From: Microlunatus antarcticus
GTDB lineage: Bacteria > Actinomycetota > Actinomycetes > Propionibacteriales > Propionibacteriaceae
Assembly (NCBI RefSeq): GCF_014193425.1
Contig: NZ_JACHZG010000001.1
Location: 2,852,001 to 2,916,000, forward strand
DNA: 64,000 nucleotides
Reading direction: 5' to 3'
The notes under the pieces are model-generated. The model did not search any database and was not told where the DNA came from. It saw only the letters and a program-made list of their open reading frames with translations. The position numbers were made by a program, and so were the translations under genes. Below, piece by piece: positions 17,161-41,909 of this stretch (its first letter is position 1; the number at the start of each line of letters is the position of its first letter).

Positions 17161-18435
17161 ATGCGGATTCTGCTGGTCGGTGCGGGCGGGGTGGGTGACG
17201 CGATCGCGCGCATCGCCGCTCGGCGCTCGTTCTTCGAGGCGCTGGTCGTGGCCGACTACGACCAGGCCCGGGCGGACCGTACGGTCGCCGCCGTGCGGGA
17301 GCGCAACCCCGGGGAGACGCGCTTCGTCGCCGACCGGGTCGACGCGTCCGACGCGACGGCGGTGGCCGAGGCCGTCCGGCGCCACGGCGCCACCCACGTG
17401 ATGAACGCCGTGGACCCGCGCTTCGTCATGCCGATCTTCGAGGGCGCCCGGCAGGCCGGGGCGGACTACCTCGACATGGCGATGTCGCTGTCGCGGCCGC
17501 ACCCCGAGCACCCGTACTCCCAGACCGGCGTCAAGCTCGGCGACGAGCAGCTCGCGCAGGACGAGGCGTGGCGCGCCGACGGCCGGCTCGCGCTGGTCGG
17601 CATCGGCGTCGAGCCGGGGCTCTCGGACGTCTTCGCGCGCTACGCGGTCGACCACCTCTTCTCCCACGTCACCGAGCTGGGCGTGCGCGACGGCGGCAAC
17701 CTGTCCGTCGCCGGCTACGCCTTCGCGCCGGGCTTCTCGATCTGGACCACGATCGAGGAGTGCCTCAACCCGCCGGTCGTCTACGAGCGCGACCGCGGCT
17801 GGTACACGATCGAGCCGTTCAGCGAGCCGGAGGTGTTCGACTTCCCGGGCGGCATCGGCCCGGTCGAGTGCGTGCACGTCGAGCACGAGGAGGTCCTCCT
17901 CATGCCGCGCTGGCTCGACGCGGACAAGGTGACCTTCAAGTACGGCCTCGGCACCGAGTTCATCGACGTGCTCAAGGCGCTGCACAAGGTGGGCCTGGAC
18001 AAGACCGACCCGGTCGACGTCAAGGGGGTGAAGGTGTCGCCGCGCGACGTCGTCGCGGCCTGCCTCCCGGACCCGGCCGGGCTCGGTGACGCGATGTCAG
18101 GCGCGACGTGCGCCGGGCTGCTCGTCACCGGTACGGGCGTGGACGGCCAGCCGCGCAAGGTCTACCTGTCCCACGTCGTCGACAACGCCGACTCGATGCG
18201 CATCGACGGCGCGCAGTGCGTGGTCTGGCAGACGGCGCTCAACCCGGTCGTCGCCCTCGAGCTCCTCGCCACCGGCGTCTGGTCGGGCGCCGGCGTCCTC
18301 GGGCCGGAGGCGTTCGACGCCGTCCCGTTCCTCGACCTGCTCGCCTCCCCCGACGGCTACGACTCCCCCTGGGAGCTGAACGAGCTCACGCCGCAACGCT
18401 CCCTGAGCCTGTCGAAGGGCAACAACGCCCCCTGA
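17161..18435 (+). CDS. Saccharopine dehydrogenase-family oxidoreductase, C-terminus extended by a repeat
   Basis: The 424-residue protein begins with a Rossmann nucleotide-binding fold (M-R-I-L-L-V-G-A-G-G-V-G-D-A-I-A) and continues as a saccharopine-dehydrogenase/Lys9-like enzyme (D-Y-L-D-M-A, G-I-G-V-E-P-G-L-S-D-V-F). Such enzymes make or break secondary amines between lysine or polyamines and a keto acid or semialdehyde. It is divergent from the amine permease unit, which suggests a connected amine substrate. The ATG at 17161 has GGAGAGG upstream and begins the Rossmann strand directly. The last residues (R-S-L-S-L-S-K-G) are not enzyme sequence: they are encoded by a copy of the dispersed CCTGAGCCTGTCGAAGGG repeat that replaced the native stop region. 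Confidence 0.82.
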   Translation: MRILLVGAGGVGDAIARIAARRSFFEALVVADYDQARADRTVAAVRERNPGETRFVADRVDASDATAVAEAVRRHGATHVMNAVDPRFVMPIFEGARQAGADYLDMAMSLSRPHPEHPYSQTGVKLGDEQLAQDEAWRADGRLALVGIGVEPGLSDVFARYAVDHLFSHVTELGVRDGGNLSVAGYAFAPGFSIWTTIEECLNPPVVYERDRGWYTIEPFSEPEVFDFPGGIGPVECVHVEHEEVLLMPRWLDADKVTFKYGLGTEFIDVLKALHKVGLDKTDPVDVKGVKVSPRDVVAACLPDPAGLGDAMSGATCAGLLVTGTGVDGQPRKVYLSHVVDNADSMRIDGAQCVVWQTALNPVVALELLATGVWSGAGVLGPEAFDAVPFLDLLASPDGYDSPWELNELTPQRSLSLSKGNNAP

Positions 18436-18462
18436 GCCTGTCGAAGGGCCTCGAAGAGGTCG
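18394..18462 (+). repeat. Two tandem CCTGAGCCTGTCGAAGGG elements at a gene end
   Basis: Two forward copies lie 30 nt apart; the second continues into CCTCGAAGAGGTCGG, the longer form also seen at 41866. The first is translated as the C-terminal R-S-L-S-L-S-K-G of the saccharopine-dehydrogenase-family gene, and the second follows or overlaps the stop region. Confidence 0.85.
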
Positions 18463-18667: not shown

Positions 18668-19810
18668 GTGCTCGACCGCGAGGACCTCCCGCTGGACGGA
18701 ACGGTCGTGCTCGACTTCAGCCAGTTCCTGGCCGGCCCGGTCGCGGCCCTGCGGCTGGCGGACCTCGGCGCCCGGGTGATCAAGGTCGAGCGGCCCGTGA
18801 CCGGCGAGATCGGGCGGACCCTCGCCTTCGCCGGCCGGTGGATCGACGGGGACACGGCGTCGTTCCACGCGATGAACCGGAACAAGGAAGCCGTCGTCGC
18901 CGACCTCAAGGACCCGGCCGACCTCGCCCTGGTGAAGGATCTCGTACGCCGCGCCGACGTCCTGCTCCACAACTTCCGCCCCGGCGTCATGGAACGTCTC
19001 GGGCTCGACCACCCCACCGTCGCCCAGCTCAACCCCGGGCTCGTCTACGCCAGCGCCTCCGGCTACGGGGCCGACGGACCGTGGGCCGGCCGCCCCGGGC
19101 AGGACCTGCTCGCGCAGTCGGTCTCGGCGCTGCCCTGGGTGAGCGGTTCCGGGGACCGCCCGGTCACGGTGGGCCTCTCGCTCGCCGACCACCTGCTCAG
19201 CTGCCACATCGCGCAGGGGGTCGTCGCGCTCCTGGTCCGCCGGGCCCGGACCGGGCGCGGCGGGCTGGTCGAGACCAGCCTGCTGGAGGGCATGCTCGAC
19301 CTCCAGCTCGTACGCCTGACCGACCGGCTCAGTGCGACCGCGACTTCCGAAGCCGAGTCGGATGAGCTCGCTCCGGCTCCCGTCTCGGGGGTCTTCCCCA
19401 CCGAAGACGGCTGGCTGGCCCTGACCGCAGCGCCCGGTCGGTTGACCCAGCTCCTCGGGACCGTCGCAGCCTCGGCGGCCGAGCTCCCGGACCTCCTCCG
19501 CGGCCGCACCACCGACGCGTGGCTCGACCTCCTCGACGCCGACGGCGTCTGGTGCTCACCGGTGCTGACGCTGGAGGAGCTGCTCGTCCACGACGCGTTC
19601 CGCGCGGTGGACATGACCCAGACCGTCGAGCGGCCGCCGCGGGAGCCGGGCGGCGAACCCGTACGCCTGACCACGACCCGCAGCCCCATCCGCATCGACG
19701 GCGAACCGCTCGTCAGCGGACGCGGCTCCCCCCGCCTGGGCGCGCAGGGCCGCGTCGGCACGAGCGCGGTCCTCACCGACGACGACGGGGAGGCGTGGCG
19801 TGAGCGCTGA
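18668..19810 (+). CDS. CaiB/BaiF-family (class III) CoA-transferase, copy 1
   Basis: The 380-residue protein opens with the family signature [11 protein letters not shown] and [12 protein letters not shown]. It has [12 protein letters not shown] and [10 protein letters not shown], whose Asp146 aligns with the catalytic aspartate that forms a covalent intermediate. Class III enzymes move CoA between carboxylic acids; neither acid nor CoA donor can be read from the sequence. It is clearly paralogous to the CaiB gene at 23905. Its 3' end overlaps the GTG start of a LacI gene by 11 nt, so the two are cotranscribed. The GTG start follows GGAGGG at a suitable distance. Linkage to a deoxy-sugar operon is unusual for this family. 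Confidence 0.88.
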   Translation: MLDREDLPLDGTVVLDFSQFLAGPVAALRLADLGARVIKVERPVTGEIGRTLAFAGRWIDGDTASFHAMNRNKEAVVADLKDPADLALVKDLVRRADVLLHNFRPGVMERLGLDHPTVAQLNPGLVYASASGYGADGPWAGRPGQDLLAQSVSALPWVSGSGDRPVTVGLSLADHLLSCHIAQGVVALLVRRARTGRGGLVETSLLEGMLDLQLVRLTDRLSATATSEAESDELAPAPVSGVFPTEDGWLALTAAPGRLTQLLGTVAASAAELPDLLRGRTTDAWLDLLDADGVWCSPVLTLEELLVHDAFRAVDMTQTVERPPREPGGEPVRLTTTRSPIRIDGEPLVSGRGSPRLGAQGRVGTSAVLTDDDGEAWRER

Positions 19811-20867
19811 CGGCGGGCCCGCCGACGAACCCGTCCGCGCCTCCGCGACCGCGGCGGTGACGCTGTCCGAGGTCGCCGCGCGCGCCGGCGTGTCCGTCTC
19901 GGCCGTCTCGAAGGTGCTGCGCGGGAACGCGGCGATCCGCGTCAGCCCCGACACCCGCCAGCGGATCCTGACGGCGGCCGAGGAGCTGCGCTACCGGCCC
20001 AACTTCGCCGCCCGCGCGCTCCAGGCCGCGCGCACCCAGGTGTTGGGGCTCGTGGTCCCCGACCTGACCAACGCGCTCTTCACCGAGCTCATGCACGGCG
20101 TCGAGGACGAGGCCGCGGCGCACGGCTACACGGTCCTGCTCGGCCGCCTCGACACCGACCGGCCGCAGACCGAGGTCATCGCCCGGCTGCTCGGCGAGGG
20201 CCGGGTCGACGGTCTGGTGCTCCAGGCCACCGACGGCGTGGACCCGGCCGCGCTGGCCCAGCTGCTCGACCCCCGGGCGGCGGTCGTGCTGATCAACTCC
20301 GTCGCCCCCGGCCGCGCCTCGTCGGTCACCGTCGACGACGTGGGCGGCGGCCGGACCGCGACCGAGCACCTCGTCGAGCTGGGCCACACCCGGATCGCCC
20401 TCGCCGGCGGGCTGCCGACGTCCTACACGGCCCAGCGCCGGCGCCGGGGTCATCAGCAGGCGATGCGGGCGGCCGGGCTCGACCCGCGCGCCGACCACGA
20501 GACCGCGCTCGGCTACACCGCCGACCAGGGTCGGCAGGCCCTGCGGGCGCTGATGCAGCTCGACCCGCGGCCGACCGGCATAGTCGTCGCCAACGTGAAC
20601 GCCGCCGTCGGGCTGCTCGCCGAGGCCCACGCCCTCGGGATCGACGTCCCCGGTGACCTGTCCGTGGTCACCGTCCTCGACTCCTGGACCGCGGAGAACA
20701 CCTGGCCACCGCTCACCGCCGTCCGCATGCAGTTCTACGCGATGGGCCGGACGGCGGTCACCAGCGTGATCCGCCGCATCGGGGACGCGACGATGACCGA
20801 CGAGGTGATCCTCGACCCCGCCCCCGTGCTGGTGGTGCGAGGGTCGACCGCTTCCCTGTCGCCCTGA
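19800..20867 (+). CDS. LacI-family transcriptional regulator, copy 1
   Basis: The 355-residue protein has an N-terminal LacI helix-turn-helix (V-T-L-S-E-V-A-A-R-A-G-V-S-V-S-A-V-S-K-V-L, residues about 20-40). A periplasmic-binding-protein-like sensor domain follows (L-G-L-V-V-P-D-L-T-N-A-L-F-T-E). It is translated from a GTG inside the end of CaiB copy 1, and is followed after 60 nt by a long hairpin and then by the nine-gene fucose operon. Regulation of the upstream CaiB gene, the downstream operon, or both is probable. The sensor presumably binds a sugar or sugar acid. Its operator is unknown; the AACGTT palindrome at 21070 is one candidate but could instead belong to the second LacI. Confidence 0.9.
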   Translation: MSADGGPADEPVRASATAAVTLSEVAARAGVSVSAVSKVLRGNAAIRVSPDTRQRILTAAEELRYRPNFAARALQAARTQVLGLVVPDLTNALFTELMHGVEDEAAAHGYTVLLGRLDTDRPQTEVIARLLGEGRVDGLVLQATDGVDPAALAQLLDPRAAVVLINSVAPGRASSVTVDDVGGGRTATEHLVELGHTRIALAGGLPTSYTAQRRRRGHQQAMRAAGLDPRADHETALGYTADQGRQALRALMQLDPRPTGIVVANVNAAVGLLAEAHALGIDVPGDLSVVTVLDSWTAENTWPPLTAVRMQFYAMGRTAVTSVIRRIGDATMTDEVILDPAPVLVVRGSTASLSP

Positions 20868-20927: not shown

Positions 20928-21005
20928 CCCTCACTTTGGAGCGCCAGAGGGGTGCTTAGCCGCTCATAACGCTTGAACGGCGCCTCTGGCGCTTCGAAGT
21001 GAGGG
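20928..21005. repeat. 23-bp inverted repeat with nested hairpin
   Basis: The arms CCCTCACTTTGGAGCGCCAG(AGG) and CCTCTGGCGCTTCGAAGTGA(GGG) pair with two mismatches over 23 bp around a 32-nt spacer that holds a small GCCG/CGGC stem. It lies 60 nt after the LacI stop, where a terminator would fit. Its size and nested design match the unrelated-sequence element at 18482-18547. Confidence 0.7.
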
Positions 21006-21139: not shown

Positions 21140-22267
21140 GTGCCGCCGTACGCCGCGGGTGACCCGAGTACGCTGCCCGAGCGGTCCCCGCACCCCGGCT
21201 ACCGCCTCGTCCTCCCGGAACGGCCCCGGCCGATCGTGCTCATCGGGGCCGGCGGCATCGTCCGGGACGCGCACCTGCCCGCGTACGCGAAGGCCGGCTT
21301 AACCGTCGCCAGTCTCACCGACCTCGACCGGGGCCGCGCACGGACGCTGGCGGACGCGTACGGCGTCGCGGAGACCTACGACGACGTCGCCGGCGCGGTC
21401 GCCCACGCGCCCGCCGACGCGGTGTACGACGTCGCCCTCCCGCCCGAGGCGCACATCGGGGTGCTCGAGCAGCTCCCGGACGGAGCCCCGGTGCTGCTGC
21501 AGAAGCCGCTCGGCAACGACCTCGCCGACGGCGTCCGCACCCGCGAGGTCTGCCACCGCAAGGGGCTCGTAGCCGCCGTCAACACGCAGCTGCGCTTCGC
21601 CCCGTACGTCGCCGCCGCCCGCGAGCTCATCGCCGCGGGCACCATCGGCGAGCTGTACGACGTCGAGGTCCGGGTCTCGGTGAACACGCCGTGGGAGATG
21701 TTCCCGTACGTGCTCGACCTCCCCCGCCTCGAGATCAACATGCACAGCGTCCACTACCTCGACCTGCTGCGCTCGTTCCTGGGCGACCCGACCGGCGTCT
21801 CCGCGGTGACCGTCCGCCACCCCGCCAAGACCGTCGCCAACACCCGCTCCGACATCGCCCTGACCTACGGCGACCGGCCCATCCGGGTCGTGGTGTCGAC
21901 GAACCACGACCACCACTTCGGCGCCCCGTACGAGGAGAGCTTCGTTAAGTGGGAGGGCACGCAGGGCGCCGTCCGCGCTCAGCTGGGACTCCTGCTCGAC
22001 TACCCGCGCGGGGGCGAGGACAGGCTCGAGGTCGTCACCGACGACCGGCTCGACGAGGGCTGGCGCCCGCTGCCCTTCAAGGGCTCGTGGTTCCCCGACG
22101 CCTTCATCGGGTCGATGAGCGTCCTGCAACGCTTCTGCGAGGGCTCGATCCCCTCGCTCCCGACGTCGGTCGACGACGTCTTCCGCACCATGGCCGTCGT
22201 CGAGGCGGCCTACCGCTCCGCAGCCAGCGGCGGCGAGCCACCCCCGTTCGACGAAGGAGCACGATGA
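21140..22267 (+). CDS. Gfo/Idh/MocA-family oxidoreductase
   Basis: The 375-residue protein has an N-terminal Rossmann domain starting at about residue 30 (P-I-V-L-I-G-A-G-G-I-V-R-D-A-H-L-P-A-Y). A Q-K-P-L motif equivalent to the family's E-K-P is followed by an alpha/beta substrate domain with E-I-N-M-H-S-V-H-Y-L-D. The Glu of E-K-P replaced by Gln is a modest deviation. The family oxidises or reduces sugars, inositols and related polyols with NAD(P). It opens the operon, so it may act on the sugar or a side product. The GTG start is preceded by GAAGGAG. The next gene overlaps it by ATGA. The substrate is not determined; it is not needed for the known fucose route. Confidence 0.85.
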   Translation: MPPYAAGDPSTLPERSPHPGYRLVLPERPRPIVLIGAGGIVRDAHLPAYAKAGLTVASLTDLDRGRARTLADAYGVAETYDDVAGAVAHAPADAVYDVALPPEAHIGVLEQLPDGAPVLLQKPLGNDLADGVRTREVCHRKGLVAAVNTQLRFAPYVAAARELIAAGTIGELYDVEVRVSVNTPWEMFPYVLDLPRLEINMHSVHYLDLLRSFLGDPTGVSAVTVRHPAKTVANTRSDIALTYGDRPIRVVVSTNHDHHFGAPYEESFVKWEGTQGAVRAQLGLLLDYPRGGEDRLEVVTDDRLDEGWRPLPFKGSWFPDAFIGSMSVLQRFCEGSIPSLPTSVDDVFRTMAVVEAAYRSAASGGEPPPFDEGAR

Positions 22268-23136
22268 GACTCGCCCGCCTGGGCCCTGCCGGAGCCGAGA
22301 TCCCCACGGTGGTCGTCGACGGCACCCACCACGACCTCCGCCCGGTGCTGGACTCGCTCGGGGTCGCCGACCTCGGACCCGCGTTCTTCGCCGCCGACGG
22401 CCTGGCGCGGGCCGCCACCGCCGTGGCCGACGGCACGCTGCCCGAGCTGCCCGGCGCGGCGGACCTGCGCGTCGGCGCACCCCTCGCCCGTCCCGGCAAG
22501 ATCGTCTGCATCGGCCTCAACTACCGCGACCACGCGGCGGAGACCGGCGCGGCGCTGCCGGAGGAGCCGATCATCTTCATGAAGGACCCGAGCACCGTCG
22601 TCGGCCCGTTCGACCGCGTCCTCGTGCCGGTCGGCTCGACCAAGACCGACTGGGAGGTCGAGCTCGGCGTCGTCATCGGCCGTACGGCGCGCTACCTCGG
22701 CTCCCCCGCCGAGTCGCGCGACCACGTGGCCGGCTACGTGCTGTCGCACGACGTGTCGGAGCGCGAGTTCCAGCTCGAGCGCGGCGGCCAGTGGGACAAG
22801 GGCAAGAGCTGCGAGACGTTCAACCCGCTCGGCCCCGAGCTGGTCACGGCGGACGAGGTCGCCGACCCGCAGGACCTGCGCCTCACGCTCTCGGTCAACG
22901 GCGTGGCCCGCCAGGACGGCACGACGGCCGACATGATCTTCGGCGTCGACCACGTGATCTGGTACCTGAGCCAGTTCATGGTCCTCGAGCCCGGGGACGT
23001 CATCAACACAGGCACGCCGGCCGGGGTCGCCCTCGGCCTGCCCGACCACCCCTACCTGAAAGCAGGCGACGTCGTGGAGCTCGAGATCACCGGCCTCGGC
23101 CGGGGCCGGCAGACGTTCGAGCAGGCGACCCGATGA
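22264..23136 (+). CDS. FAH-family hydrolase, probable 2,4-diketo-3-deoxy-L-fuconate hydrolase
   Basis: The 290-residue enzyme has a short N-terminal domain then the fumarylacetoacetate-hydrolase fold. Seen are G-K-I-V-C-I-G-L-N-Y-R-D-H-A, the metal-binding E-x-E in D-W-E-V-E-L-G-V-V, S-H-D-V-S-E-R, G-K-S-C-E-T-F-N-P-L-G-P, and D-V-I-N-T-G-T-P-A-G-V. In the non-phosphorylating L-fucose pathway a family member cleaves 2,4-diketo-3-deoxy-L-fuconate into pyruvate and L-lactate. Placement next to an SDR and with fuconate dehydratase and lactonase in one operon points to this reaction. The ATG overlaps the preceding stop by 4 nt. The reaction is inferred from context; the fold and metal site are seen. 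Confidence 0.88.
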   Translation: MRLARLGPAGAEIPTVVVDGTHHDLRPVLDSLGVADLGPAFFAADGLARAATAVADGTLPELPGAADLRVGAPLARPGKIVCIGLNYRDHAAETGAALPEEPIIFMKDPSTVVGPFDRVLVPVGSTKTDWEVELGVVIGRTARYLGSPAESRDHVAGYVLSHDVSEREFQLERGGQWDKGKSCETFNPLGPELVTADEVADPQDLRLTLSVNGVARQDGTTADMIFGVDHVIWYLSQFMVLEPGDVINTGTPAGVALGLPDHPYLKAGDVVELEITGLGRGRQTFEQATR

Positions 23137-23927
23137 GCCCCGTGGAGCCGAGCCAGGAGTTCGCCGGGCTGGTCGCCGTCGTGACCGGCGGCGGGGCCGG
23201 CATCGGGCTGGCCGTCGTCGAGGAGCTCGTGGCGCGCGGGGCGCACGTCGCCGCGCTCGACGTCGACCCCAGCGGTGCCCCGGAGGGCGTCCTGGCGGTC
23301 CCCTGCGACGTCCGCGACCGCGCGTCGGTCGACGCGGCCATCGCCACGGTCGTGTCCGAGCTCGGGCAGCTCGACGTCGTCGTGAACAACGCCGGGATCA
23401 GCGCCGTCGGCACGGTCGAGGACCTCTCCGACGACGACTGGTCACGCGTCCTGGACGTCAACGTCGTCGGGATCGCCCGCGTGTCGGCCGCCGCCATGCC
23501 GTACCTGCGCCGCTCCGACGCCGCGGCCATCGTCAACACGTGCTCGATCGCGGCCCTGGTCGGGCTCCCCCAGCGCACCCTGTACGCCGCGTCGAAGGGT
23601 GCGGTGCTCGCCCTCACCTTCGCCATGGCGACCGACCACGTCGGCGAGGGCATCCGCGTCAACTGCGTGGCACCGGGGACCGTCCACACCGGGTTCGTGG
23701 ACCGGATGCTGGCGACGTTCCCCGACCCGGTCAAGGAGAAGGCCGCGATGGACGCCCGCCAGGCCATCGGCCGGATGGTGACGCCCGAGGAGGTCGCGTA
23801 CGCGGTCGCCTACCTGGCCAGCCCGCGCGCGGGCTCGACCACGGGCACCTCGCTCGAGGTCGACGGCGGCGCCACCCACCTGCGCGCCCGCCAGGTCCAG
23901 AAGCGTGACGGCGGCGACGGTGCCTGA
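23133..23927 (+). CDS. SDR dehydrogenase, probable 2-keto-3-deoxy-L-fuconate dehydrogenase
   Basis: The 264-residue short-chain dehydrogenase has T-G-G-G-A-G-I-G for NAD(P), N-N-A-G, the Ser of N-T-C-S-I-A-A, the catalytic Y-A-A-S-K and a C-terminal D-G-G. An acidic residue after strand 2 (A-L-D-V-D) favours NAD+. Between the hydrolase and later fuconate genes it fits the dehydrogenase that makes 2,4-diketo-3-deoxy-L-fuconate. It overlaps the hydrolase gene by ATGA and its 3' end overlaps the CaiB start. A second SDR at 32397 could share or replace this role. The class is certain; the substrate is inferred. Confidence 0.87.
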   Translation: MSPVEPSQEFAGLVAVVTGGGAGIGLAVVEELVARGAHVAALDVDPSGAPEGVLAVPCDVRDRASVDAAIATVVSELGQLDVVVNNAGISAVGTVEDLSDDDWSRVLDVNVVGIARVSAAAMPYLRRSDAAAIVNTCSIAALVGLPQRTLYAASKGAVLALTFAMATDHVGEGIRVNCVAPGTVHTGFVDRMLATFPDPVKEKAAMDARQAIGRMVTPEEVAYAVAYLASPRAGSTTGTSLEVDGGATHLRARQVQKRDGGDGA

Positions 23928-25059
23928 GGGCTCCGACGAGCTGGACCTGCCGCTGGAGGGCGTGACCGTCCTCGACTTCAGCCAGTTCCTCGCCGGGCCG
24001 GTCGCGGCCCTGCGGCTCGCTGATCTTGGTGCGCGCGTGATCAAGATCGAGCGCCCGGGCACGGGCGACCTCGGTCGGACCCTCGCGTTCGGCGGGCGGA
24101 TGGCCGGGGCGAGCTCCATGTCGTTCCACGCGATGAACCGCAACAAGGAGAGCATCACCGCCGACCTGAAGGACCCCGCCGACCTGGCGATGGTGCGCGA
24201 CCTCGTGGCCACCGCCGACGTGATGATCCAGAACTTCCGCCCCGGCGTGATGGAACGCATCGGCCTTGACCACGCGTCGGTCTCCACGATCAACCCGAAG
24301 ATCATCTACGGCAGCGTCAGCGGCTACGGCGACGCCGGCCCGTTCAAGGACCGGCCCGGCCAGGACCTGCTGGCCCAGGCCATCTCCGGGCTGCCGTGGC
24401 TGAACGGCTCGCGCGAGGACCCGCCCGTCCCCGTCGGCCTGTCCGTCGCCGACCACCTCGCCAGCTGCCACCTGGCGCAGGGCATCACCGCCCTGCTCGT
24501 GCGCCGCTACCGCACCGGCCGCGGCGGCCTCGTGCAGACCAGCCTCTTCGAGGCCCTGCTCGACCTGCAGTTCGAGCTGCTCACCACCCGCCTGAACGAC
24601 CCGACCGTCGCGGTGCAGCGCAAGGGTCCGCGCTCGGCGCACGCGTTCCTGCCCGCCCCGTACGGCATCTACCCCTGCTCCGACGGCTACCTCGCCATCG
24701 CGATGAACCCGGTCCCGACCATCGGGCGCCTGCTCGGGCTGCACGAGCTGACCTCGATGAGCGACCCGAGCGCCTGGTGGGAGCGGCAGGAGGAGATCGA
24801 GGAGCTGATCGCCGATCGGCTGCGGACCGACACCCGTGACGCGTGGCTCGCGCTGCTCGACGCCGAGGACGTCTGGTGCGCACCCGTCCTGACGCTGGAG
24901 GAGCTGATCGCGCACGAGGGCTTCGCCGCCATCGCGATGACCCAGCAGGTCAGCGCCGACGACCTCACCCTGACCACCACCCGCAGCCCGATCCGTGTCG
25001 ACGGCCACCGCCTGACGAGCGAGCGACCCGGCCCGGCCCTGGGCGAGCACAACCGATGA
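23905..25059 (+). CDS. CaiB/BaiF-family (class III) CoA-transferase, copy 2
   Basis: The 384-residue protein has [30 protein letters not shown] and G-Q-D-L-L-A-Q with the expected catalytic Asp154. It is closely similar along its length to copy 1 at 18668. The coding start overlaps the SDR gene by 23 nt at GTG 23905, or by 8 nt if GTG 23920 is used. It is followed by an ATGA overlap with a solute-binding-like gene. A CoA-transferase is not part of any described L-fucose route, so an acid produced here may be activated to a CoA ester. That acid is unknown. It may pair with the MaoC hydratase two genes later. Confidence 0.87.
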
Positions 25060-26219
25060 CCCTCCCGATCACGACACTGCGCGGCATCACCTGGGAGCAC
25101 CCCCGCGGCTACGACTGCCAGGTCGCGGCGGCCGCCGAGTACGAGCGGCGGACGGGGGTCCGGGTCGAGTGGGAGTTCCGGTCGCTGCAGCTCTTCGCCG
25201 ACGCGCCCCTCGAGGACCTCACCGCGCGCTACGACCTGCTGGTCATCGACCACCCGCACGTGCCCCTGGCGGCCAAGGCCGGGCTGCTCGCCGCCCTCGA
25301 CGGGGCCGGGCACGACGAGGAGCTGGCCGCGCTGGCCGCCGACTCGGTCGGGCCGAGCCACGCGACGTACGCGCACGCCGGCCACCAGTACGGCCTCGCC
25401 ACCGACACCGCGTCACAGGTCGCGGTTCACCGGCCCGACCGGCTCCCGGACGCGCCAACGACCTGGGACCAGGTGCTCGAGCTGGCGGACGAGGGTCGGG
25501 TGATCTGGCCGGCCAAGCCGATCGACGCGTGGTCGAGCCTCTGCACAATCGCGGCCAACCGCGGGACCCCGGTGGGGGCCTCGCCGGGCGTGTTCCTCTC
25601 CGCCGAGGACGCCGCCCCCGTCCTCGACCTGCTGCACCGCCTCGCCGACCGGGTCCCGGCCTGGTGCCTGTCGGCCAACCCCATCCAGGTCGCCGAGGCG
25701 CTCGCGGCCGAGAGCGACGAGGTCTGGGCCTACGCGCCGCTGCTCTACGGCTACAGCAACTACTCCCGCGCCGCGTTCCGTCCGCAGCGGCTGCGCTACG
25801 TCGACATGCCGGCCGGCCTGCGCGGGGTCGCGGGCTCCCAGCTCGGCGGCGCCGGGGTTGCGGTATCAAGCCGTGCCTCCGATCTGGCCGCGGCGCGCGC
25901 GTACGCGCTGTGGGTCGCCTCGCCGGAGATCCAGTCGGGCCTCTACTACGACGCCGGCGGCCAGCCCGGCTACGGGGCGTCATGGGACGACGACCGGCTC
26001 AACGCGGACTCGCTCGACTTCTTCCGCGGGACCCGCCGGACGGTCGAGGAGTCGTGGGTGCGCCCGCGCACCGCCGGACTCATCGAGCTCCAGGACACGG
26101 TCTCGCCCTGGGTCACCAAGACGCTGCGGCGCGACCTGAGCGACGAGACGCTGCTGCACCGCGCGAACGAGCTGGCCGCGCGTCTGCTGGTCGAGCAGGA
26201 CACAAGGGAGGACCGATGA
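25056..26219 (+). CDS. Solute-binding-protein-like protein without signal peptide, copy 1
   Basis: The 387-residue product matches ABC extracellular solute-binding family 1 in layout. The first lobe starts at once ([12 protein letters not shown]), followed by [32 protein letters not shown] and a late [10 protein letters not shown]. No hydrophobic leader or lipobox exists and there is no room for one: the ATG overlaps the CaiB stop by 4 nt and the conserved fold begins at residue 6. It should therefore be cytoplasmic. No permease adjoins it. It may be a cytosolic sugar-acid binder, an enzyme on the type II SBP fold (as in THI5 or thiaminase), or a sensor. Function unknown; the lack of a leader is the key observation. 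Confidence 0.85.
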
Positions 26220-26668
26220 AGACCGAGGACCGCTGGTTCGAGGACTACCAGATCGGCGAGAGCCGAACGTCGGTCGGGCGCACGATCACCGAGACCGACG
26301 TCGTCATGCACGCCGGCCAGACGGGCGACTTCTTCCCGCACCACATGGACGCGGAGTGGATGAAGACCCAGCCCGCCGGCCAGCGAATCGCCCACGGCAC
26401 GCTGATCCTCTCCGTCGCGGTCGGCATGACGGCGACGGACATCAACCCGCAGGCGATGTCGTACGGCTACGACAAGATCAGGTTCATCAAGCCGGTCTTC
26501 ATCGACGACACGATCACCGTCACCGCGGCGATCACCGAGCTCTCTGACCACAAGAAGCAGCCCGACCGCTACGGCTACGTCCACGAGCTCGTCACCGTCA
26601 ACAACCAGCGCGACGAGACCGTGATGGTCCTGACGCACCTCTACCTGACCAACAAGCGCGGCGGATGA
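26216..26668 (+). CDS. MaoC-type (R)-hydratase/dehydratase
   Basis: A 150-residue single hot-dog-fold protein. The hydratase motif reads G-D-F-F-P-H-H-M-D, with the catalytic Asp and His conserved and the usual Asn-Pro pair altered to Phe-Pro; R-I-A-H-G-T-L then follows. Such enzymes hydrate enoyl-CoA or dehydrate hydroxyacyl-CoA, and mesaconyl-CoA and related branched substrates are known. Paired with a CaiB CoA-transferase in the same operon, it suggests a CoA-ester step. It overlaps both neighbours by ATGA and lies between two leaderless solute-binding-like genes. The substrate is unknown. Confidence 0.88.
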
Positions 26669-27864
26669 GCTCGGCGCCGCTGACGCTCTTGGGCCGCGAG
26701 TTCGACGGGTTCCGTCGAGCCGTGTCCGCGCACGCCACGGCCTGGCCGTCGGGCGGCACCGAGGGTGTACGGGCGACCTGGCTCGGGCTGCCCGAGCTGG
26801 AGGCTGCCGCTCTCGGGCCCGACGACCCGACCGCCGACCTGCTCGTCGTCCCCGCCGACTGGCTGCCCGCGCTGGCGGCGAGCGGGCGGATCCGCGGCCT
26901 GACGCCGTACCTCGAGCAGACCTCGCCAGAGGGTTGGCCGGACGCGTGGTCGCCGTCCTTCCACGAGGGCATCACCTGGGGAGACGACGTCTACGGCTTG
27001 CCGTTCCACGACGGTCCGCAGTTGCTGTTCACGCGACCGTCGCTGCTCGCCGAGCACGGGCTCCAGCCACCGACGACCTGGTCGGATCTGCTCGCCCAGG
27101 CCGCCGCTCTGCAGGAGCCCGGCGTCCGCGCCGGCACCGTCCTCGCCGGCAAGCCCGACGGCCACAACAACGTCTACGACCTCGTGCTGCACCTGCGCCG
27201 CTTCGGCGGCGACCTCATCGATGCCCACGGCCGGATCGTTCTCGGCACCGCCCCGATGCGCGCCGCGCTCGCCTTCCTGCGCGAGGTCGTCACCACGCTG
27301 GTGAGTCCGGCTGCCGCGCAGATGGACAGCAACGACAGCGGCTCGGAGTTCGCCGCCGGACGCGTCGGCGTCACCGTGAACTGGGCCGGCTACTCGTCGC
27401 TGGCCGCCGCCGGCGCGGTGGCGGAGGACTTCGCCTGCGCGGTCGCCCCGACCCACGACGACGGCAGCCCGACCGTCACCGTCAACGCCTTCTGGGTCAC
27501 GTGCGTGACGACGGCCTGCGCCGACCCCGACCGCGCCTGGGACTACGTCCGCCACGCGGCTTCCGCGGAGACGGACCTCGAGACCACCCGCGCCGGCGCG
27601 TCCGGCGCCCGCCGGAGCACCTGGGCCGATCCCGATCTCCTCGTCGACCACCCCGAGCACGCGCTGTTCGAGCAGGCCCACGCGCACTCCCGCCCGCTGC
27701 CCCGCGTACCCGAGCTGCCCACTCTCGTCCAGGTGCTCAACGAGCTGGTCGACGCCGTCGTCTGGCGCGGCGAGCCCGTCGAACCGGCCCTCGCCGCAGC
27801 CTCCGCTGCCGCGGCATCCTTCGCCCCACCCCTGCCGCTGAACCCAACCAGGAGCCCCTCATGA
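26665..27864 (+). CDS. Solute-binding-protein-like protein without signal peptide, copy 2
   Basis: The 399-residue protein again has the family 1 solute-binding architecture: [40 protein letters not shown] and a G-V-T-V-N-W-A-G-Y core. No signal peptide is present: residue 1 onward ([12 protein letters not shown]) is polar. The ATG overlaps the MaoC stop by 4 nt. It differs substantially from copy 1, so these are not recent duplicates. No permease is adjacent. Two leaderless paralogues separated by a hydratase suggest a two-subunit cytoplasmic assembly, but this is inference. Function unknown. Confidence 0.85.
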
Positions 27865-29201
27865 CCCGCATCGTCGCCGTCGACGTCGTCGACCTCCGCT
27901 TCCCGACCTCGCTGTCGCTGGACGGCTCCGACGCCATGAACAAGGACGCCGACTACTCCGCGGCCTATGTCGTGCTGCGCACCGACGACCCGGATCTGGC
28001 CGGGCACGGCTTCACCTTCACCATCGGGCGCGGCAACGACATCTGCGTGCTCGCCGCCGAGCACCGCGCCGCCCCGCTGATCGGCCGCGACGTCGCCGAC
28101 GTGGTCGGCGACCTCGGCGGGACGTACCGCGGGCTCGCCTCGGACTCGCAGCTGCGCTGGCTCGGCCCGGACAAGGGCGTCGAGCACCTGGCCATGGCCG
28201 CCGTGATGAACGCCGTCTGGGACCTCGCCGCCCGGGTCGCCGGCAAGCCGCTGTGGCAGCTGCTCGTCGACATGGACCCCGAGGTGCTCGTCGACACCCT
28301 CGACCTCACCTACCTCAGCGACGTCCTGACCCGCAACGAGGCCGTCGCGATGCTGACGGAGTCGGTCCCCGACCGGGCCGAGCGCATTGCCGACCTCGGC
28401 CGCACGGGCTACCCCTGCTACACGACCTCCGCCGGTTGGCTCGGCTACTCCGACGACAAGCTGCGCCGCCTCGCCGCCGAGGCGCTCGAGCAGGGCTTCC
28501 GCCACGTGAAGCTCAAGGTCGGCGCGAACCTCGAGGACGACGTACGCCGCTGCTCGATCGCGCGCGAGGTCATCGGCTGGGACGCGAACCTCATGATCGA
28601 CGCCAACCAGGTCTGGGACGTGCCGCAGGCCATCGAGTGGGTGCGGGCGCTGGCCGAGTTCAAGCCGCTGTGGATCGAAGAGCCGACCAGCCCGGACGAC
28701 GTGCTCGGCCACGCCACGATCCGCAAGGCGGTCGCGCCGATCGGCGTCGCGACGGGCGAGCACGGCATGAACCGGGTGCTGTTCAAGCAGCTGTTCCAGG
28801 CGGAGGCGATCGACTTCTGCCAGCTCGACGCGGCCCGGCTGGCTTCGATCAACGAGATCGTGCCCGTCTACCTGATGGCGAAGAAGTTCGGCGTCCCGGT
28901 CTGCCCGCACGCCGGCGGCGTCGGGCTCTGCGAGCTCGTGCAGCACCTGTCGGTCTTCGACTACGTCGCGGTGTCGGGGACGACCGAGCACCGGGTGACC
29001 GAGTTCGTCGACCACCTGCACGAGCACTTCACCGACCCCTGCATCGTGGACGACGGCGCGTACGTGCTCCCGTCGCGGCCCGGCTACAGCGCGGAGATCA
29101 AGACCGCCTCCGTCGCCGAGTACGCCTTCCCGGACGGGACCTTCTGGGCCGGCCGCAGCTCCGCTGCCGATGTTGTCGACCCCGAGGGGGCGCTGCGGTG
29201 A
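27861..29201 (+). CDS. L-fuconate dehydratase (enolase superfamily)
   Basis: The 446-residue protein has the full length and motifs of L-fuconate dehydratases (mandelate racemase group). These include [10 protein letters not shown] near the N-terminus, [14 protein letters not shown] with the catalytic Lys of K-x-K, metal ligands in D-A-N-Q-V-W, W-I-E-E-P-T and A-T-G-E-H, and H-A-G-G-V-G-L. The Gly-Glu-His-(Gly)-x-N-R segment resembles human ENOSF1 and Xanthomonas FucD. It converts L-fuconate to 2-keto-3-deoxy-L-fuconate. It overlaps the preceding gene by ATGA and the lactonase by GTGA. This is the strongest single indicator of an L-fucose pathway, although galactonate or rhamnonate relatives share many motifs. 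Confidence 0.9.
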
Positions 29202-30058
29202 TCATCGACTCCCACCTGCACGTCTGGGACCTCGACCGCTCGCCCTACTCCTGGATCGACCGGGACGTCCCGCCGTTCAACCGCACCTTCACCTTCGACG
29301 AGGTCGCGCCCCAGCTCGAGCAGAACGGCGTCGACGCCGTCATCCTCGTCCAGGCCGACGACGACGACCGCGACACCGACCTGATGCTCGAGGTCGCCGC
29401 CGAGCGGCCCGAGGTCGTCGGCGTGGTCGCCTACATCCCGCTCGAACGCCCGGCCGAGGCCGCAGCCCGCCTCGAGGTGCTGCAGGCCAACCCGTACGTC
29501 GTCGGCATCCGCAACCTGACCCACGATCGCGCGGACCCGGACTGGGTCCTGCGCCCCGACGTGGACGAGACCCTCGGCCTGATCGAGCAGGCCGGCCTCC
29601 CCTGGGACCACGTCGCCGTCCTTCCCCGCCACCTCGAGCACGTGGCGACGATCAGCGAGCGCCACCCGGACCTGCGCATCGTCATCGACCACTTGGCCAA
29701 GCCACCGATCGGCGAGGCGTCCTACGAACCCTGGTGGAGCCTCATCGGAGTCGCCGCCCAGAACCCGCTCGTGCACGCCAAGATCTCCGGCTTGTACCCC
29801 GGCGCTGACCTCGCGTCCTGGACCATCGACGGGGTTCGCCCGTTCGTAGACCGCGCACTCGACGTCTTCGGCGCGAACCGACTCATGTACGGCGGCGACT
29901 GGCCGATCTCCATCGTCGCCGGCGACTATGGGCCGGTCTTCGACGGCCTGCGTACGGTGCTTGTGGGCCTATCGAAGGCAGAGGCCGAAAACGTGTGGTC
30001 ACACACAGCCCAACGAATGTATGGCGCCGATCCCCTCGGTCAACGGAAGGGCACGTAG
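29198..30058 (+). CDS. Amidohydrolase-family lactonase, probable L-fuconolactone hydrolase
   Basis: The 286-residue metal-dependent hydrolase opens with [10 protein letters not shown] (first metal-ligand H-x-H) and has V-I-D-H-L-A-K-P and M-Y-G-G-D-W-P (final Asp) typical of COG3618 lactonases. This group includes L-fuconolactonase and L-rhamnono-lactonase. Immediately downstream of fuconate dehydratase with a GTGA overlap, it should open L-fucono-lactone to L-fuconate. It is the last gene of the nine-gene run. The sequence after about 29960 becomes more AT-rich, approaching the island boundary, but the C-terminus is intact. The exact lactone is inferred from its partner enzymes. Confidence 0.88.
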
Positions 30059-30163
30059 AGCCACACTGCGGTCGCAGCCACCCTCGTCAGGCAGAGTCAC
30101 CGCGTGCTCGGTTGCTCGGAGACTTCAGCGCATCACAACGACCCTTAACTCAACGCGTCTTGG

Positions 30164-31870
30164 TCAGCGAAATAACCAGCCGGGGACCGGACGAGCCGTA
30201 AAGTCTTCGTCCTCAATAAACGTTTCCGTCCCAATTGGGATGCCTATATACCGGTTACTCGAATATAGTATCGCCGACGCCTCAATATCTTTGACTTTGC
30301 CCGCGCCAGTGAAGATTACGAACGTTACGATACCTGTCAAGACTGAAATTATGTATCGAACATTGATATAGAAGTCTCTTATTGGTATGTCTTGAAGTCC
30401 TACCGGCTCAAGCCAAGACTTGAGTCGCATCGGGACGCGATAGTTTAGTAGGGAAACCTCCTTGGTGAGAAGCAGCCATAGTAGTGACACGCTGATCGCA
30501 AGCGGCAGAGAGAGACTTACTCGAAACTCTGCTTCTGATTTGAGCCTGTCGAAGAGGTCGAAGAGGCCGGATTGTTCTACCCGAAGCCTGATCTGACCAG
30601 CCTTTGTGCGCCTTTCTAAGTCTTTTGTATAGGCAGCAGAGTCCACGATCTGGCGCAGAAACAGGCGCCGGTAACGTTCGTTGTCGTTCAGGAGGTCGCT
30701 CAAGCGTTTGACCAGCCACCTGCCCAGATCTTCCGTAGAGACGAACTGCGGTCCTCCATTGCGCGTTAAGCTCTGCTCAATCTTCCGCCAAGTAAACTTC
30801 CTGATGTCGACATATGGGCGACTCTGCTTCGGCACCGCATCCACTGCGACGCCGATCTCGCTTAGAGTCATAATCTGGTCATAGATGGAAGACGCCTTGA
30901 AATCAGCACGCATCTGCGACGTCGGGTCTCTAATCTGGCTCAACCCGGCTTGGACCTCCTCCGGTAAGAGTGGGTCGTTGAGGCCGAGTCTCGCTCGCCA
31001 GTTTAGGGGCTTGAACAGGTGTCGGTATGCCGTGGCGGGGTCCTTGATCTCGACGGTGTCCAAACTTTGCACCAACCACTTTCGGAACGACTTCGGGACT
31101 TTCAAGTAGGCGTGCAGGCCGATTGCTGCATCTGCAATGGCGTCCCAGCTATATTCGCTCGAAAAGTGCAGGAGCTTACTAGGGACGTCGAACTTCTCTG
31201 ACGACGAGTTCAGTGCTCTTGCAATCTCGGAAAACTGCATTCGCTCCACGAATCTGCCAATAAATCCCGGATCCACGTCGATGCGACGAGAGAGATCTTG
31301 GGTGCGAAAGTACTCGATCTGACGTCTCTCAGGATTCCATGCGCTTGCGATGTCTTCGCGAGTTCGAGAACCAAGTCCGTATAATTGCAGGAGGGAAGCC
31401 GTCGAGGCGTTCCTAATCCTCACGTTCATACGATTCAGGAAACCCTGATCTTTCGAGAGGCTAGATGCACCAACGACGATTGCCACGAGGAGTAGGAAGG
31501 CGAGGAAGAATAGCAGCTGGCCGAACTTGGTTTGCAGAAGAAGCACTGCGAGCGAAATGCTTCCAACAATGCCAATAAAGAGCTTGAAGAGCGCGCGCAG
31601 AAGGCGGGCCACACGATCACCGATGACTGTTGCGGCCACACCTAATAAGTAGATAGCCAGAGCCGCCACAGACAGCTTTACCTCGGTCGGAAATTTTGCC
31701 ATGCTTACTGTAATCGGCTCAATACCCGTAAGCAGGTGCGATCGGAAGCTTCCGTCGCCTCGAGGGAGTGCCGTGAAGGTCAGCATTACCGTTAATACCC
31801 AGAGCACTCCGACCGCCACGGGTGTCCGGAAATCTCGGACGCCAGGCAGGAGTTGCGAGAGCAAGTTCAT
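30164..31870 (-). CDS. Unknown multi-TM protein in a low-GC island
   Basis: The 568-residue product has three or four N-terminal hydrophobic helices (V-A-V-G-V-L-W-V-L-T-V-M-L, L-A-I-Y-L-L-G-V-A-A, L-F-F-L-A-F-L-L-L-V-A-I-V-V). A charged soluble middle of about 270 residues follows, then two more helices near the C-terminus (L-A-I-S-V-S-L-L-W-L-L, V-L-T-G-I-V-T-F-V-I-F). I recognise no domain. The ATG at 31870 was chosen because the reading upstream is low-complexity and unlike protein; the ribosome binding site is weak (GGGGT). GC and codon use are plainly lower than all neighbours, which suggests recent transfer. It is convergent with the fucose operon. A defence or membrane-remodelling role cannot be excluded or shown. 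Confidence 0.7.
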   Translation of the reverse strand: MNLLSQLLPGVRDFRTPVAVGVLWVLTVMLTFTALPRGDGSFRSHLLTGIEPITVSMAKFPTEVKLSVAALAIYLLGVAATVIGDRVARLLRALFKLFIGIVGSISLAVLLLQTKFGQLLFFLAFLLLVAIVVGASSLSKDQGFLNRMNVRIRNASTASLLQLYGLGSRTREDIASAWNPERRQIEYFRTQDLSRRIDVDPGFIGRFVERMQFSEIARALNSSSEKFDVPSKLLHFSSEYSWDAIADAAIGLHAYLKVPKSFRKWLVQSLDTVEIKDPATAYRHLFKPLNWRARLGLNDPLLPEEVQAGLSQIRDPTSQMRADFKASSIYDQIMTLSEIGVAVDAVPKQSRPYVDIRKFTWRKIEQSLTRNGGPQFVSTEDLGRWLVKRLSDLLNDNERYRRLFLRQIVDSAAYTKDLERRTKAGQIRLRVEQSGLFDLFDRLKSEAEFRVSLSLPLAISVSLLWLLLTKEVSLLNYRVPMRLKSWLEPVGLQDIPIRDFYINVRYIISVLTGIVTFVIFTGAGKVKDIEASAILYSSNRYIGIPIGTETFIEDEDFTARPVPGWLFR

Positions 31871-32062
31871 AGCGGGTACCCCGAAACTGTGTAAGAACTG
31901 AACCTCGGATTGGTCGCGCTTGGCAGAGGGAGATACCCCGCAAGCACGTACCTTAGCTAAACAGCGCAAAGATAACAGATTGCGGGGCGACCAGGGGTAA
32001 CCCATGTGAATCAGTGGGGTTGCGCAACCTGCCCGTGCTCGGCCGAGGGAAAAGCCCAACAT

Positions 32063-34770: not shown

Positions 34771-35733
34771 TCAGCCCTTGACCGCCCCGACCGTCTGACC
34801 GCGCATGAGGAACCGCTGGGCGCCCAGGAACACGATCAGCAGCGGCAGCATGCTGAGGAACGTCGCCAGCGCGAGCTGGGGCATGTAGAGCTTGACGTTC
34901 AGCCCGGCCGCGACGGTCGGGTTGAACAGCGGGCTCGCGCCGATGAGCTCCTGCAGACCGATGGAGACGGTCTTGTTGTTCTGGTTGGAGCTGAGCAGGG
35001 CGAGCGGGAGGAAGAAGTTCGTCCAGTTCGCCACGAAGGAGAAGAACGCGACCAGGGCGACGGCCTGCTTGGAGATCGGGATCGCCACCTTGGTGAAGAT
35101 CGAGATCTCGTTCAGCCCGTCGATTCGCGCGGCCTCGACCAGCTCGGGCGGCATCGTCGTCATGAAGTGGATGTAGGCGAGGTAGCAGCCGAACGGGAAG
35201 AACCCCATGATCACGATGACGGGCCACAGCTGCCCGACCGCGCCGATCGCCGCCACCTCGAGGAACAGCGGGATGACGAGCACGGTGTTCGGCATGACCA
35301 TGGCGAGCAGGGTGACGAAGAGCAGGACGCGGCGGCCGCGGAAGCGGAGCCGGGCCATCGCGTAGCCGGCCGGGATCGCGGCGACGACGGCGATGAGCGC
35401 GCCCCCGATCGAGATCACCAGCGAGTTGGTCATCCACTGGACGAACAGTCCCCCGTTGCCCGGCCCGAAGCCGTCGACCTGGGACCAGGAGTAGCGGACG
35501 TTCTCCCACGACACCCCGCCGAGCCCGAGGAACCCGCCCTGGCCCGCCGCGACCTCGTCCGCGTTGCGGAAGGACATGGCGACGAAGCCGATGATCGGGA
35601 ACACGAAGGCGGCGGCGACGAGCAGCATCGTGACGATGCGGGCCAGCCGGTTGATCGACATCGGGCGACGGCCGGCCGACGTGCGGAGGGGCGTCTCGGG
35701 AGCGGCAGTGGTTTCCGGCAGAGCGACGGCCAT
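34771..35733 (-). CDS. Carbohydrate ABC transporter permease, MalG type
   Basis: A 320-residue inner-membrane permease with six helices and the cytosolic E-A-A-x3-G loop (E-A-A-R-I-D-G-L-N-E-I), which docks with an ATPase. Motif G-F-F-P-F-G-C-Y-L-A lies just before the loop. It is the third gene of an importer unit after the binding protein and first permease; its ATG overlaps the preceding stop (ATGA). No ATPase gene is present, so it probably uses a shared MsiK-type ATPase encoded elsewhere, which is usual in actinobacteria. The substrate is inferred to be L-fucose or a related 6-deoxysugar from the neighbouring genes and shared operator. Confidence 0.9.
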   Translation of the reverse strand: MAVALPETTAAPETPLRTSAGRRPMSINRLARIVTMLLVAAAFVFPIIGFVAMSFRNADEVAAGQGGFLGLGGVSWENVRYSWSQVDGFGPGNGGLFVQWMTNSLVISIGGALIAVVAAIPAGYAMARLRFRGRRVLLFVTLLAMVMPNTVLVIPLFLEVAAIGAVGQLWPVIVIMGFFPFGCYLAYIHFMTTMPPELVEAARIDGLNEISIFTKVAIPISKQAVALVAFFSFVANWTNFFLPLALLSSNQNNKTVSIGLQELIGASPLFNPTVAAGLNVKLYMPQLALATFLSMLPLLIVFLGAQRFLMRGQTVGAVKG

Positions 35734-36713
35734 CAGTGGGTCTCCTCGCTGAACAGCCCGCTCTTGAACACGATGATCAGCCCGATGCCGAGGGTGATGG
35801 CGAGCAGGATGAGCGACATCGCGGCGGCGGCCGGGAAGTTGTAGTTGGAGAACGCGAAGGCGTAGCCGAGCTGGCTCGGCGAGTACTGGTCGGGCAGCGC
35901 GTTCGAGGCGACCTGGTCGAGCAGCTGGGGCTCGAGGAAGAGCTGGAAGCCGTACGCGAGGTTCATCAGCGCCGCGTAGCCGATCCACGGCCGGATGATC
36001 GGCAGCTTGACGTCCCAGGCGACGCGCCACGGGCCCGCACCGTCGATCTCAGCCGCCTCGAGCACGGCCTCGTCGATCCCGTTGAGCCCGCCGTTGACGA
36101 TCACGATCCACGTGCCGACGCCCTGGAAGAACAGCATCGCCGCGAGGATGAAGGACAGGTTGTTCCCCGAGACGACGACCGACTTGATGTCGGTGAGGCC
36201 GAGGGCGCTCCAGAACGCCCGGATCGGCGACGAGCTCGGGTTGAGCAGGTACACCCAGAGCACGAAGTTCGCCACGCCGGCGAGCGCACCGGGGAGGTAG
36301 TAGACGAAGCGCATCACGTTGCCGAAGCGGCCGGGGCTCGCGTGCACCAGGAGGGCCAGGCCGACGATCCCGATCATCATGATCGGCAGCCAGATGACCA
36401 GGACGCTGGCGATGTTGCCGAAGGTCCGCAGGAACCGGAAGTCGGTGACGACCGTCTCGAAGCTCTTCAGCCCGCCGAAGCCGACCGCCGGGTTGAGCGG
36501 GGTCGGCGGCGTCTGCAGGGCCGTCGCGAAGGCGTAGCCGATCGGGACGATCCCGGCGATCAGCAGCAGGACGACGTACGGCGCGCAGAGGGTCCACGCG
36601 CCGACCGCCTCGACGCGCCGCGAGGTGCGTCGAGACGGTCGCCTGGACGGACCTGCGACGGCGGCGTCGGCCGCCGTCGCAGAGTCCGTCCGGGCCGAGG
36701 AGGCCACGGTCAT
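35733..36713 (-). CDS. Carbohydrate ABC transporter permease, MalF type
   Basis: The 326-residue permease has six helices after an Arg/Ser-rich cytosolic N-terminus. The E-A-A loop reads E-A-A-E-I-D-G-A-G-P-W. It overlaps the binding-protein stop and the next permease start by 4 nt each. Together with its partner it would form the membrane channel of a sugar importer. The ligand is inferred from context, as for its partner. Confidence 0.9.
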   Translation of the reverse strand: MTVASSARTDSATAADAAVAGPSRRPSRRTSRRVEAVGAWTLCAPYVVLLLIAGIVPIGYAFATALQTPPTPLNPAVGFGGLKSFETVVTDFRFLRTFGNIASVLVIWLPIMMIGIVGLALLVHASPGRFGNVMRFVYYLPGALAGVANFVLWVYLLNPSSSPIRAFWSALGLTDIKSVVVSGNNLSFILAAMLFFQGVGTWIVIVNGGLNGIDEAVLEAAEIDGAGPWRVAWDVKLPIIRPWIGYAALMNLAYGFQLFLEPQLLDQVASNALPDQYSPSQLGYAFAFSNYNFPAAAAMSLILLAITLGIGLIIVFKSGLFSEETH

Positions 36714-41865: not shown

Positions 41866-41909
41866 GAACGCTCCCTGAGCCTGTCGAAGGGCCTCGAAGA
41901 GGTTGGCGT
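41866..41909 (+). repeat. CCTGAGCCTGTCGAAGGG element, long form
   Basis: This copy directly follows the stop of the aldose dehydrogenase gene and continues into CCTCGAAGAGGTTGG, as does the second copy at 18424. It separates the convergent aldose dehydrogenase and hydrolase genes and could take part in termination. Confidence 0.85.

Follow-up and report, generated by a model that had tools for sequence, protein, structure and literature searches.

Leaderless solute-binding proteins beside CoA-transferase and hydratase genes at an L-fucose locus of Microlunatus antarcticus: a possible CoA-dependent branch of sugar-acid breakdown

The subject of this work is an operon of nine genes, all oriented in one direction, found at positions 21140-30058 of a 64,000-nucleotide stretch of the Microlunatus antarcticus genome (contig NZ_JACHZG010000001.1; the whole stretch is denoted here as the window). 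Genes of the type known from the non-phosphorylating L-fucose pathway are combined in it with a family III coenzyme A (CoA) transferase (CaiB1), a MaoC-type hydratase and two homologs of solute-binding proteins (SBPs), SBP1 and SBP2, both devoid of an export leader. Relatives are labelled by L-numbers when they are stretches fetched around individual loci and by G-numbers when they are genomes. The operon, preceded by a second CoA-transferase gene and a regulator, is composed as follows:

18668-19810, plus strand: CaiB2, a second family III CoA-transferase and paralog of CaiB1 (62% identity; Pfam PF02515, E 1.9e-87)
19800-20867, plus strand: LacI-family regulator, which travels with the module described below (tblastn neighbors in L012-L015, L022-L024 and others)
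21140-22267, plus strand: Gfo/Idh/MocA sugar oxidoreductase (Gfo; PF01408, E 4.8e-9), near the CaiB-SBP1-MaoC trio in Kribbella, Microlunatus and Nocardioides loci
22264-23136, plus strand: FAH-family hydrolase of the 2,4-diketo-3-deoxy acid hydrolase type (PF01557, E 4.1e-69)
23133-23927, plus strand: short-chain dehydrogenase (SDR; PF13561, E 1e-54), by context a probable 2-keto-3-deoxy-fuconate dehydrogenase
23905 (or 23920)-25059, plus strand: CaiB1, family III CoA-transferase and partner of SBP1 (PF02515, E 4.1e-99)
25056-26219, plus strand: SBP1, solute-binding-protein homolog without a leader
26216-26668, plus strand: MaoC, hotdog-fold hydratase/dehydratase (PF01575, E 1.1e-21), with the Asp and His dyad present
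26665-27864, plus strand: SBP2, second leaderless SBP homolog, in a family of its own (PF01547, E 5.7e-22)
27861-29201, plus strand: L-fuconate dehydratase (FucD), enolase superfamily, MR/MLE type (PDB 2HXT/1YEY, E 1.2e-175)
29198-30058, plus strand: amidohydrolase-2 lactonase, fuconolactonase-like (PF04909, E 9.7e-43)

An earlier note, made from the letters of this DNA, had described nine codirectional genes joined nearly throughout by 4-nt overlaps, and this was borne out at seven of the eight junctions, the exception being SDR/CaiB1, where the overlap is 8 or 23 nt according to the CaiB1 start chosen. The same note had assigned four genes to the fucose route. To judge from its sequence, the dehydratase can be counted as a genuine relative of FucD, and the lactonase and the FAH hydrolase belong to the right families, with scores below the NCBIfam equivalog cut-offs (164 bits against 400 for NF052480, and 303 bits against 500 for NF053535, respectively). 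The family assignments of the operon genes were supported by Pfam and NCBIfam. The position of CaiB2 5' of the LacI gene is repeated in Kribbella and in the G003 and G095 loci. Neither of these two genes figured in the earlier note, nor did the importer, FucU-family and aldo/keto reductase genes described below. An inverted repeat (20928-21005, with 23-nt arms that are 91% complementary and 32 nt apart), which may be a terminator, an operator or a mobile repeat, lies between the LacI gene and the start of the operon, and a short dispersed repeat, CCCTTCGACAAGCTCAGGG, occurs in five copies with at most one mismatch (13281-13375, 18401-18448 and 41873-41891; chance expectation 0.02), two of them directly 5' of CaiB2; similar repeats, identified by eye, precede SBP2 in L022.

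The partnership between CaiB and SBP1 was examined in 50 distinct loci, counted after dropping duplicates (L002-L010, L025, L027 and L069) and keeping L055, whose SBP1 copy is broken (192 aa, in a record where further frames are broken); genes in loci without annotation were called with a crude gene caller. CaiB directly adjoins SBP1 in 44 of these loci and lies no more than 3.1 kb away in 48. All SBP1 relatives with 52-88% identity are placed between CaiB and MaoC (19 loci, L002-L009 and L011-L021, in which some genomes are represented by two loci), in Nocardioides, Kribbella, Microlunatus, Okibacterium, Leifsonia and other genera, and most of the remotest members (about 33-45% identity) still adjoin CaiB. 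The pair was seen in Actinomycetota, Alpha- and Betaproteobacteria and Bacteroidota, with a spread beyond Actinomycetota that rests on plasmid records and is hence biased to them (145 with an SBP1 match, 90 from Sinorhizobium and others from Azospirillum, Variovorax, Streptomyces and Persicobacter). In a broader sample of the phylum of the window, 9 of 198 genomes had an SBP1 match at E 0.001, strong only in the window's own genome and in G156. Among 96 relatives, the SBP1 family (E up to 1e-30) was found in 19, the MaoC subfamily in 13 and CaiB1 in 11, and an SBP1-family gene was present in all 13 MaoC genomes (p about 1e-11) and all 11 CaiB1 genomes (p about 1e-9), values that are uncorrected for kinship.

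The SBP2 family is rarer (4 of the 96 relatives). The recurrence of the neighborhood envisaged by the earlier note held for the CaiB-SBP1-MaoC trio, which is found in many actinobacterial genera, and not for the four-gene block including SBP2, which no locus other than the window, L011, L022 and L023 was seen to have. Bacteroidota of the genera Rufibacter (L077) and Persicobacter (L048) carry SBP1, two CaiB genes, SBP2, Gfo and MaoC beside a RhaT symporter. In the haloarchaeon Halostagnicola (L078), a CoA-ligase, an SBP2 relative, MaoC, Gfo, a mutarotase, an amidohydrolase and an alpha-L-fucosidase form one cluster. The pSymB replicon of Sinorhizobium meliloti contains the arrangement Gfo-MaoC-SDR-FAH-FucD, with CaiB-SBP1 about 10 kb off; in the record of strain 1021 (NC_003078.1; L042, 10839-11995) the CaiB gene is split over two frames, through either a sequence error or a real break, and it is intact in the records of four other strains, 2011 included. 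L-fucose is among the carbon sources listed as supporting the growth of S. meliloti (PMC4207669).

The absence of leaders was assessed by scoring the hydrophobicity of the segment near the start. For 38 of the 50 distinct SBP1 proteins (the window's included), the 45 codons that precede the gene contain no in-frame start, and the remaining 12, when extended upstream, show no leader-like segment (best score 1.61, next 1.05). By this test, a leader-like segment at the start was found in none of the 50 SBP1 and none of the nine SBP2 proteins, and 11 of 13 transport SBPs from the same loci (eight identified by annotation, five by place and lipobox) scored at least 1.8. The annotated start of the L077 SBP2 is internal, and its upstream extension gives no leader either. 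An offset of 5-12 residues, measured earlier between start and motif, arose partly by construction, because the start codon nearest to the motif had been chosen, and the 45-codon test is the fairer one. Misplaced starts hiding leaders are ruled out by these results, and the observation of leaderless SBPs beside CoA enzymes, made in the earlier note, is confirmed. Of the features of a transport SBP, the two-lobed fold is present by prediction, and the export signal and adjoining permease genes were not found. The SBPs of sugar ABC transporters (for instance Agrobacterium Atu4361, GacH and the beta-1,2-glucooligosaccharide-binding protein) are exported, whereas SBP1 is leaderless and partners CoA enzymes. 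In annotations, SBP1-type proteins bear names such as extracellular solute-binding protein or ABC transporter subunit, which hide their function.

A further body of evidence comes from the enzymes that accompany SBP1. Within the fetched stretches, MaoC was found in 30 of the 50 loci and a crotonase (ECH) in 19, with both in three and neither in four; two of the latter are from S. meliloti, where MaoC lies farther on in the same region. When this character was placed on the SBP1 tree, leaving out the loci that hold both, three changes between MaoC and crotonase were counted, two of them forced by supported branches, and when L010 and L032 were scored as MaoC the figures rose to four and three. 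The activating enzyme varies as well. In L030, L032 and L036, SBP1 adjoins an AMP-forming CoA-ligase, and CaiB and crotonase follow at a distance of 3-4 kb; transferase, ligase and hydratase, the enzyme types of the carnitine system, occur together in these three loci. In L040 the order is CaiB, SBP1, ligase; the window operon has the transferase and the hydratase and no ligase. What is constant across the loci is CoA activation together with a CoA-ester hydratase, and these non-homologous swaps (MaoC for crotonase, CaiB for AMP-ligase) speak in favor of a branch that works on CoA esters and includes a cytosolic SBP.

The catalytic residues of these enzymes are kept. The active-site Asp column of CaiB, which we take to hold the nucleophile, is Asp in 63 of 63 relatives, and the Asp of CaiB1 is aligned with that of human SUGCT. 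As to the dyad of MaoC, to which a catalytic role is presumably due, alignment showed the Asp in 38 of 38 proteins and the His in 35, the three without it being longer, different MaoC proteins. Such a longer second MaoC, with Val replacing the catalytic His, is located 5' of CaiB in some Alphaproteobacteria (L045, 10274-10840; L046; L055). In the crotonases, a pair of Glu residues 20 columns apart is found in 19 of 19. The closest solved relative of the window MaoC is the MaoC-like structure 4FFU (E 6.4e-47), an S. meliloti protein without an assigned function, which bears just the label 'oxidase' in the structure table. Directly 3' of CaiB-SBP1-crotonase in L070 (11524-12465, by Pfam) and L071 (11216-12154, by resemblance) there is a metallo-beta-lactamase-fold protein, possibly a thioesterase, beside large proteins that look beta-helix-like by eye.

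Regarding the SBPs themselves, SBP1 is a discrete, monophyletic family (branch support 97/97), and SBP2 forms a clade separate from it. An alignment of 49 SBP1 sequences (L055 left out; mean identity 42%, lowest 25%) contains 23 invariant residues, among them W13, H15, R17, W39, D65, D117, Y233, Y236, Q303, W310 and R336, and H66 and R338 are kept in 48 of the 49. According to the predicted secondary structure, many of the invariant residues are situated at the ends of strands 1-3 and in the hinge, presumably the usual ligand cleft of SBPs, and the closest folds among the matches listed are sugar-binding proteins. The one sequence lacking H66, Y105 and R338 is that of L050, where the gene of the SBP1 relative and that of a mannonate dehydratase overlap (8988-11173, beside mannonate dehydratases) in a stretch without CaiB; L069, also CaiB-less in its stretch, keeps all three residues, so the two loci together provide no clean test.

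Genes outside this set, located downstream in the window, appear to provide for transport and for the known L-fucose steps:

34771-38074, minus strand: ABC sugar importer made up of two permeases and a binding protein, its three genes 74-77% identical to those of the L023 importer
40461-40877, plus strand: RbsD/FucU mutarotase family gene
40895-41860, plus strand: aldo/keto reductase, by context a candidate L-fucose dehydrogenase

The matching importer of L023 lies directly 5' of Gfo. The binding protein of the window importer (36710-38074) has a lipobox, recognized by eye; it gave no Pfam match, and its matches in the PDB are sugar SBPs (best E 1.3e-7). There is no permease gene inside the nine-gene operon, no ABC gene is annotated in the L048 and L077 stretches, and importers with separate binding proteins are present at some other SBP1 loci. 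Since transport and the known fucose steps appear to have genes of their own, SBP1, SBP2, CaiB1, CaiB2, MaoC and probably Gfo can be regarded as an extra module. The idea that they are part of the fucose route was not upheld: the module often sits with the known route and is distinct from it. For the nine genomes with a tight trio, it is also ruled out that the module is a self-sufficient replacement of FucD, as all nine hold FucD, FAH and aldo/keto reductase genes as well. GH95 or alpha-L-fucosidase genes were found at L015, L029 (by N-terminal resemblance), L047, L048 and L078, and also at L059, a locus without SBP1. Elsewhere in the window, a 632-aa protein without a Pfam match is encoded at 30164-32062 on the minus strand, mostly inside the 4-kb stretch that is poorest in G+C (28001-32000, 62%), and 7551-11417 encodes a protein of 1288 aa that combines six fibronectin type III stretches with a C-terminal domain resembling OmpA.

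Known systems invite comparison. To our knowledge, the carnitine CaiB/CaiC/CaiD system has no SBP component, and the known non-phosphorylating L-fucose route has neither a CoA step nor a cytosolic SBP. The window resembles the latter in having FucD, a lactonase-like amidohydrolase, SDR, FAH, a FucU-family gene and an aldo/keto reductase. The resemblance to the former lies in the three enzyme types that adjoin SBP1 in L030, L032 and L036, and the difference in the hydratase, which is here a MaoC in many lineages, and in the context, which is one of sugars. In E. coli, CaiB, CaiC and CaiD are described as a CoA-transferase, an ATP-dependent CoA-ligase and a hydratase that handle CoA esters of a hydroxy acid (PMC3680233). 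A CoA ester of a sugar acid has been proposed, from mutant fitness data, for deoxyribonate use in Klebsiella michiganensis, whose cluster has a CoA-transferase, as here, and also a CoA-synthetase; that route differs in using a dehydrogenase and a thiolase, and the word solute-binding is absent from the main text of the paper (PMC6365646). Among the open-access literature matches listed, there was no paper joining CaiB, MaoC and an SBP.

These observations could be integrated in a model, our best reading but a tentative one, in which Gfo, CaiB1/CaiB2, SBP1 and MaoC (with SBP2 in some lineages) would constitute a cytosolic, CoA-dependent side branch, attached here to the non-phosphorylating L-fucose pathway. 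With the same reserve, the branch may carry out a carnitine-like, CoA-dependent dehydration of an L-fuconate-related acid, with the cytosolic SBP as substrate-binding partner. Partner swaps argue for the undescribed CoA-ester branch suggested by the earlier note, with the modification that the module is a separate set that includes Gfo and a second CaiB; that a CoA ester of a sugar acid is its intermediate is what we infer. Briefly, the ABC importer, placed by gene context, would bring in a fucoside or fucose-like sugar, which would be oxidized by Gfo and, after opening of the lactone by the lactonase, yield an acid of the 6-deoxy-aldonate type. CaiB, as its family and catalytic Asp suggest, would put CoA on this presumed acid, and the most economical donor, by analogy with carnitine breakdown, would be the product's own CoA ester. 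The hydratase, here MaoC and elsewhere crotonase, would then eliminate the C3 hydroxyl by way of the C2 proton acidified by the thioester, and the 3-deoxy-2-keto (enoyl) product may pass to the SDR and FAH steps to give pyruvate and lactate. SBP1, cytosolic as its missing leader indicates, would close over the sugar acid and present it to, or hold it for, the CoA-activating enzyme, a role consistent with its partnership and conserved residues. Such a route would suit an acid beyond the reach of the enolase-type FucD, for instance another epimer, or an acid whose 2-hydroxyl is blocked.

Several points weigh against this model. The 2-keto-acyl-CoA product is chemically unusual. No lactonase was recognized in several crotonase-type loci (L049, L034 and L038), where the second step may therefore differ. 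At L058 (G006) and L059 (G012), CaiB1 (70-71%), lactonase and Gfo are found without an adjacent SBP1, the sole and distant SBP1 copy being located elsewhere in both genomes, so that SBP1 as an obligatory partner of each CaiB1 is not supported; conversely, the stretches fetched for L033/L069 and L050 contain SBP1 and no CaiB. Omitting L037 and L066 as well lowers the number of changes between MaoC and crotonase to two. Finally, the CoA route is not obviously needed, as the known fucose steps look covered elsewhere (L023; 34771-41860 in the window); L-fuconate dehydratase is present in 48 of the 96 relatives, mostly without the module.

Enzymes built on the SBP fold exist, and the rival explanation that survives best, although we consider it unlikely, is that SBP1 is one of them, acting just before or after CoA activation, for instance by opening a lactone onto CoA or by epimerizing or hydrating an intermediate. 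The 23 residues that stay invariant down to 25% identity, including H15, R17, D65, D117 and R336, and their mapping toward the usual ligand cleft would agree with this, as would the lack of a recognized lactonase at the three crotonase-type loci mentioned above. However, SBP1 carries no catalytic motif of a known enzyme, its closest listed folds are sugar-binding proteins, and the same conservation is expected of a binding site for one conserved group. A less probable alternative is that SBP1 is a cytosolic sensor or store of the imported sugar or acid, serving regulation or protection from a toxic intermediate, with CaiB and MaoC independent of it. The sugar-type relatives of its fold and the LacI or IclR regulators near many loci fit such a role, but these regulators are already dedicated to regulation, the usual neighbor of SBP1 is a CoA-activating enzyme and not a regulator, and its overlap with CaiB suggests matched amounts. 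It is more doubtful still that the CoA module strips a decoration (such as O-methyl or acyl) from an L-fucose derivative, as an accessory to the fucose pathway and with no dehydration of an acid. The association with fucosidase, mutarotase and FucD (the last in 12 of the 13 MaoC genomes), where the fucose steps nonetheless look otherwise encoded, and the esterases adjoining the module in L077 speak for it; against it, neither a demethylase nor an esterase was found to accompany the module regularly, and the crotonase-type L070 and L071 adjoin the large beta-helix-like proteins and not fucose genes. That the SBPs are decaying transport proteins hitch-hiking in an operon after loss of their leaders is hardly credible, since beyond the fold it has only the broken L055 copy in its favor and must face 50 distinct proteins, conserved, leaderless and monophyletic across phyla, that are present even where no ABC importer is annotated (L048 and L077).

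To return to the CoA-dependent side branch, a broader view of it is conceivable, if open to more doubt: that SBPs were recruited from transport at least once, and probably twice, to serve sugar-acid CoA activation in the cytosol, as specificity subunits or as enzymes, making up, with CaiB or ligase and MaoC or crotonase, an undescribed route that spans bacterial phyla and has an SBP2-type counterpart in the cluster of a haloarchaeon. If this is true, the SBP fold would gain a new cytosolic job, sugar-acid breakdown would have a CoA branch next to the enzymes of the enolase-type dehydratase family, and soil, marine and rhizobial bacteria would possess a module that has so far gone unrecognized.

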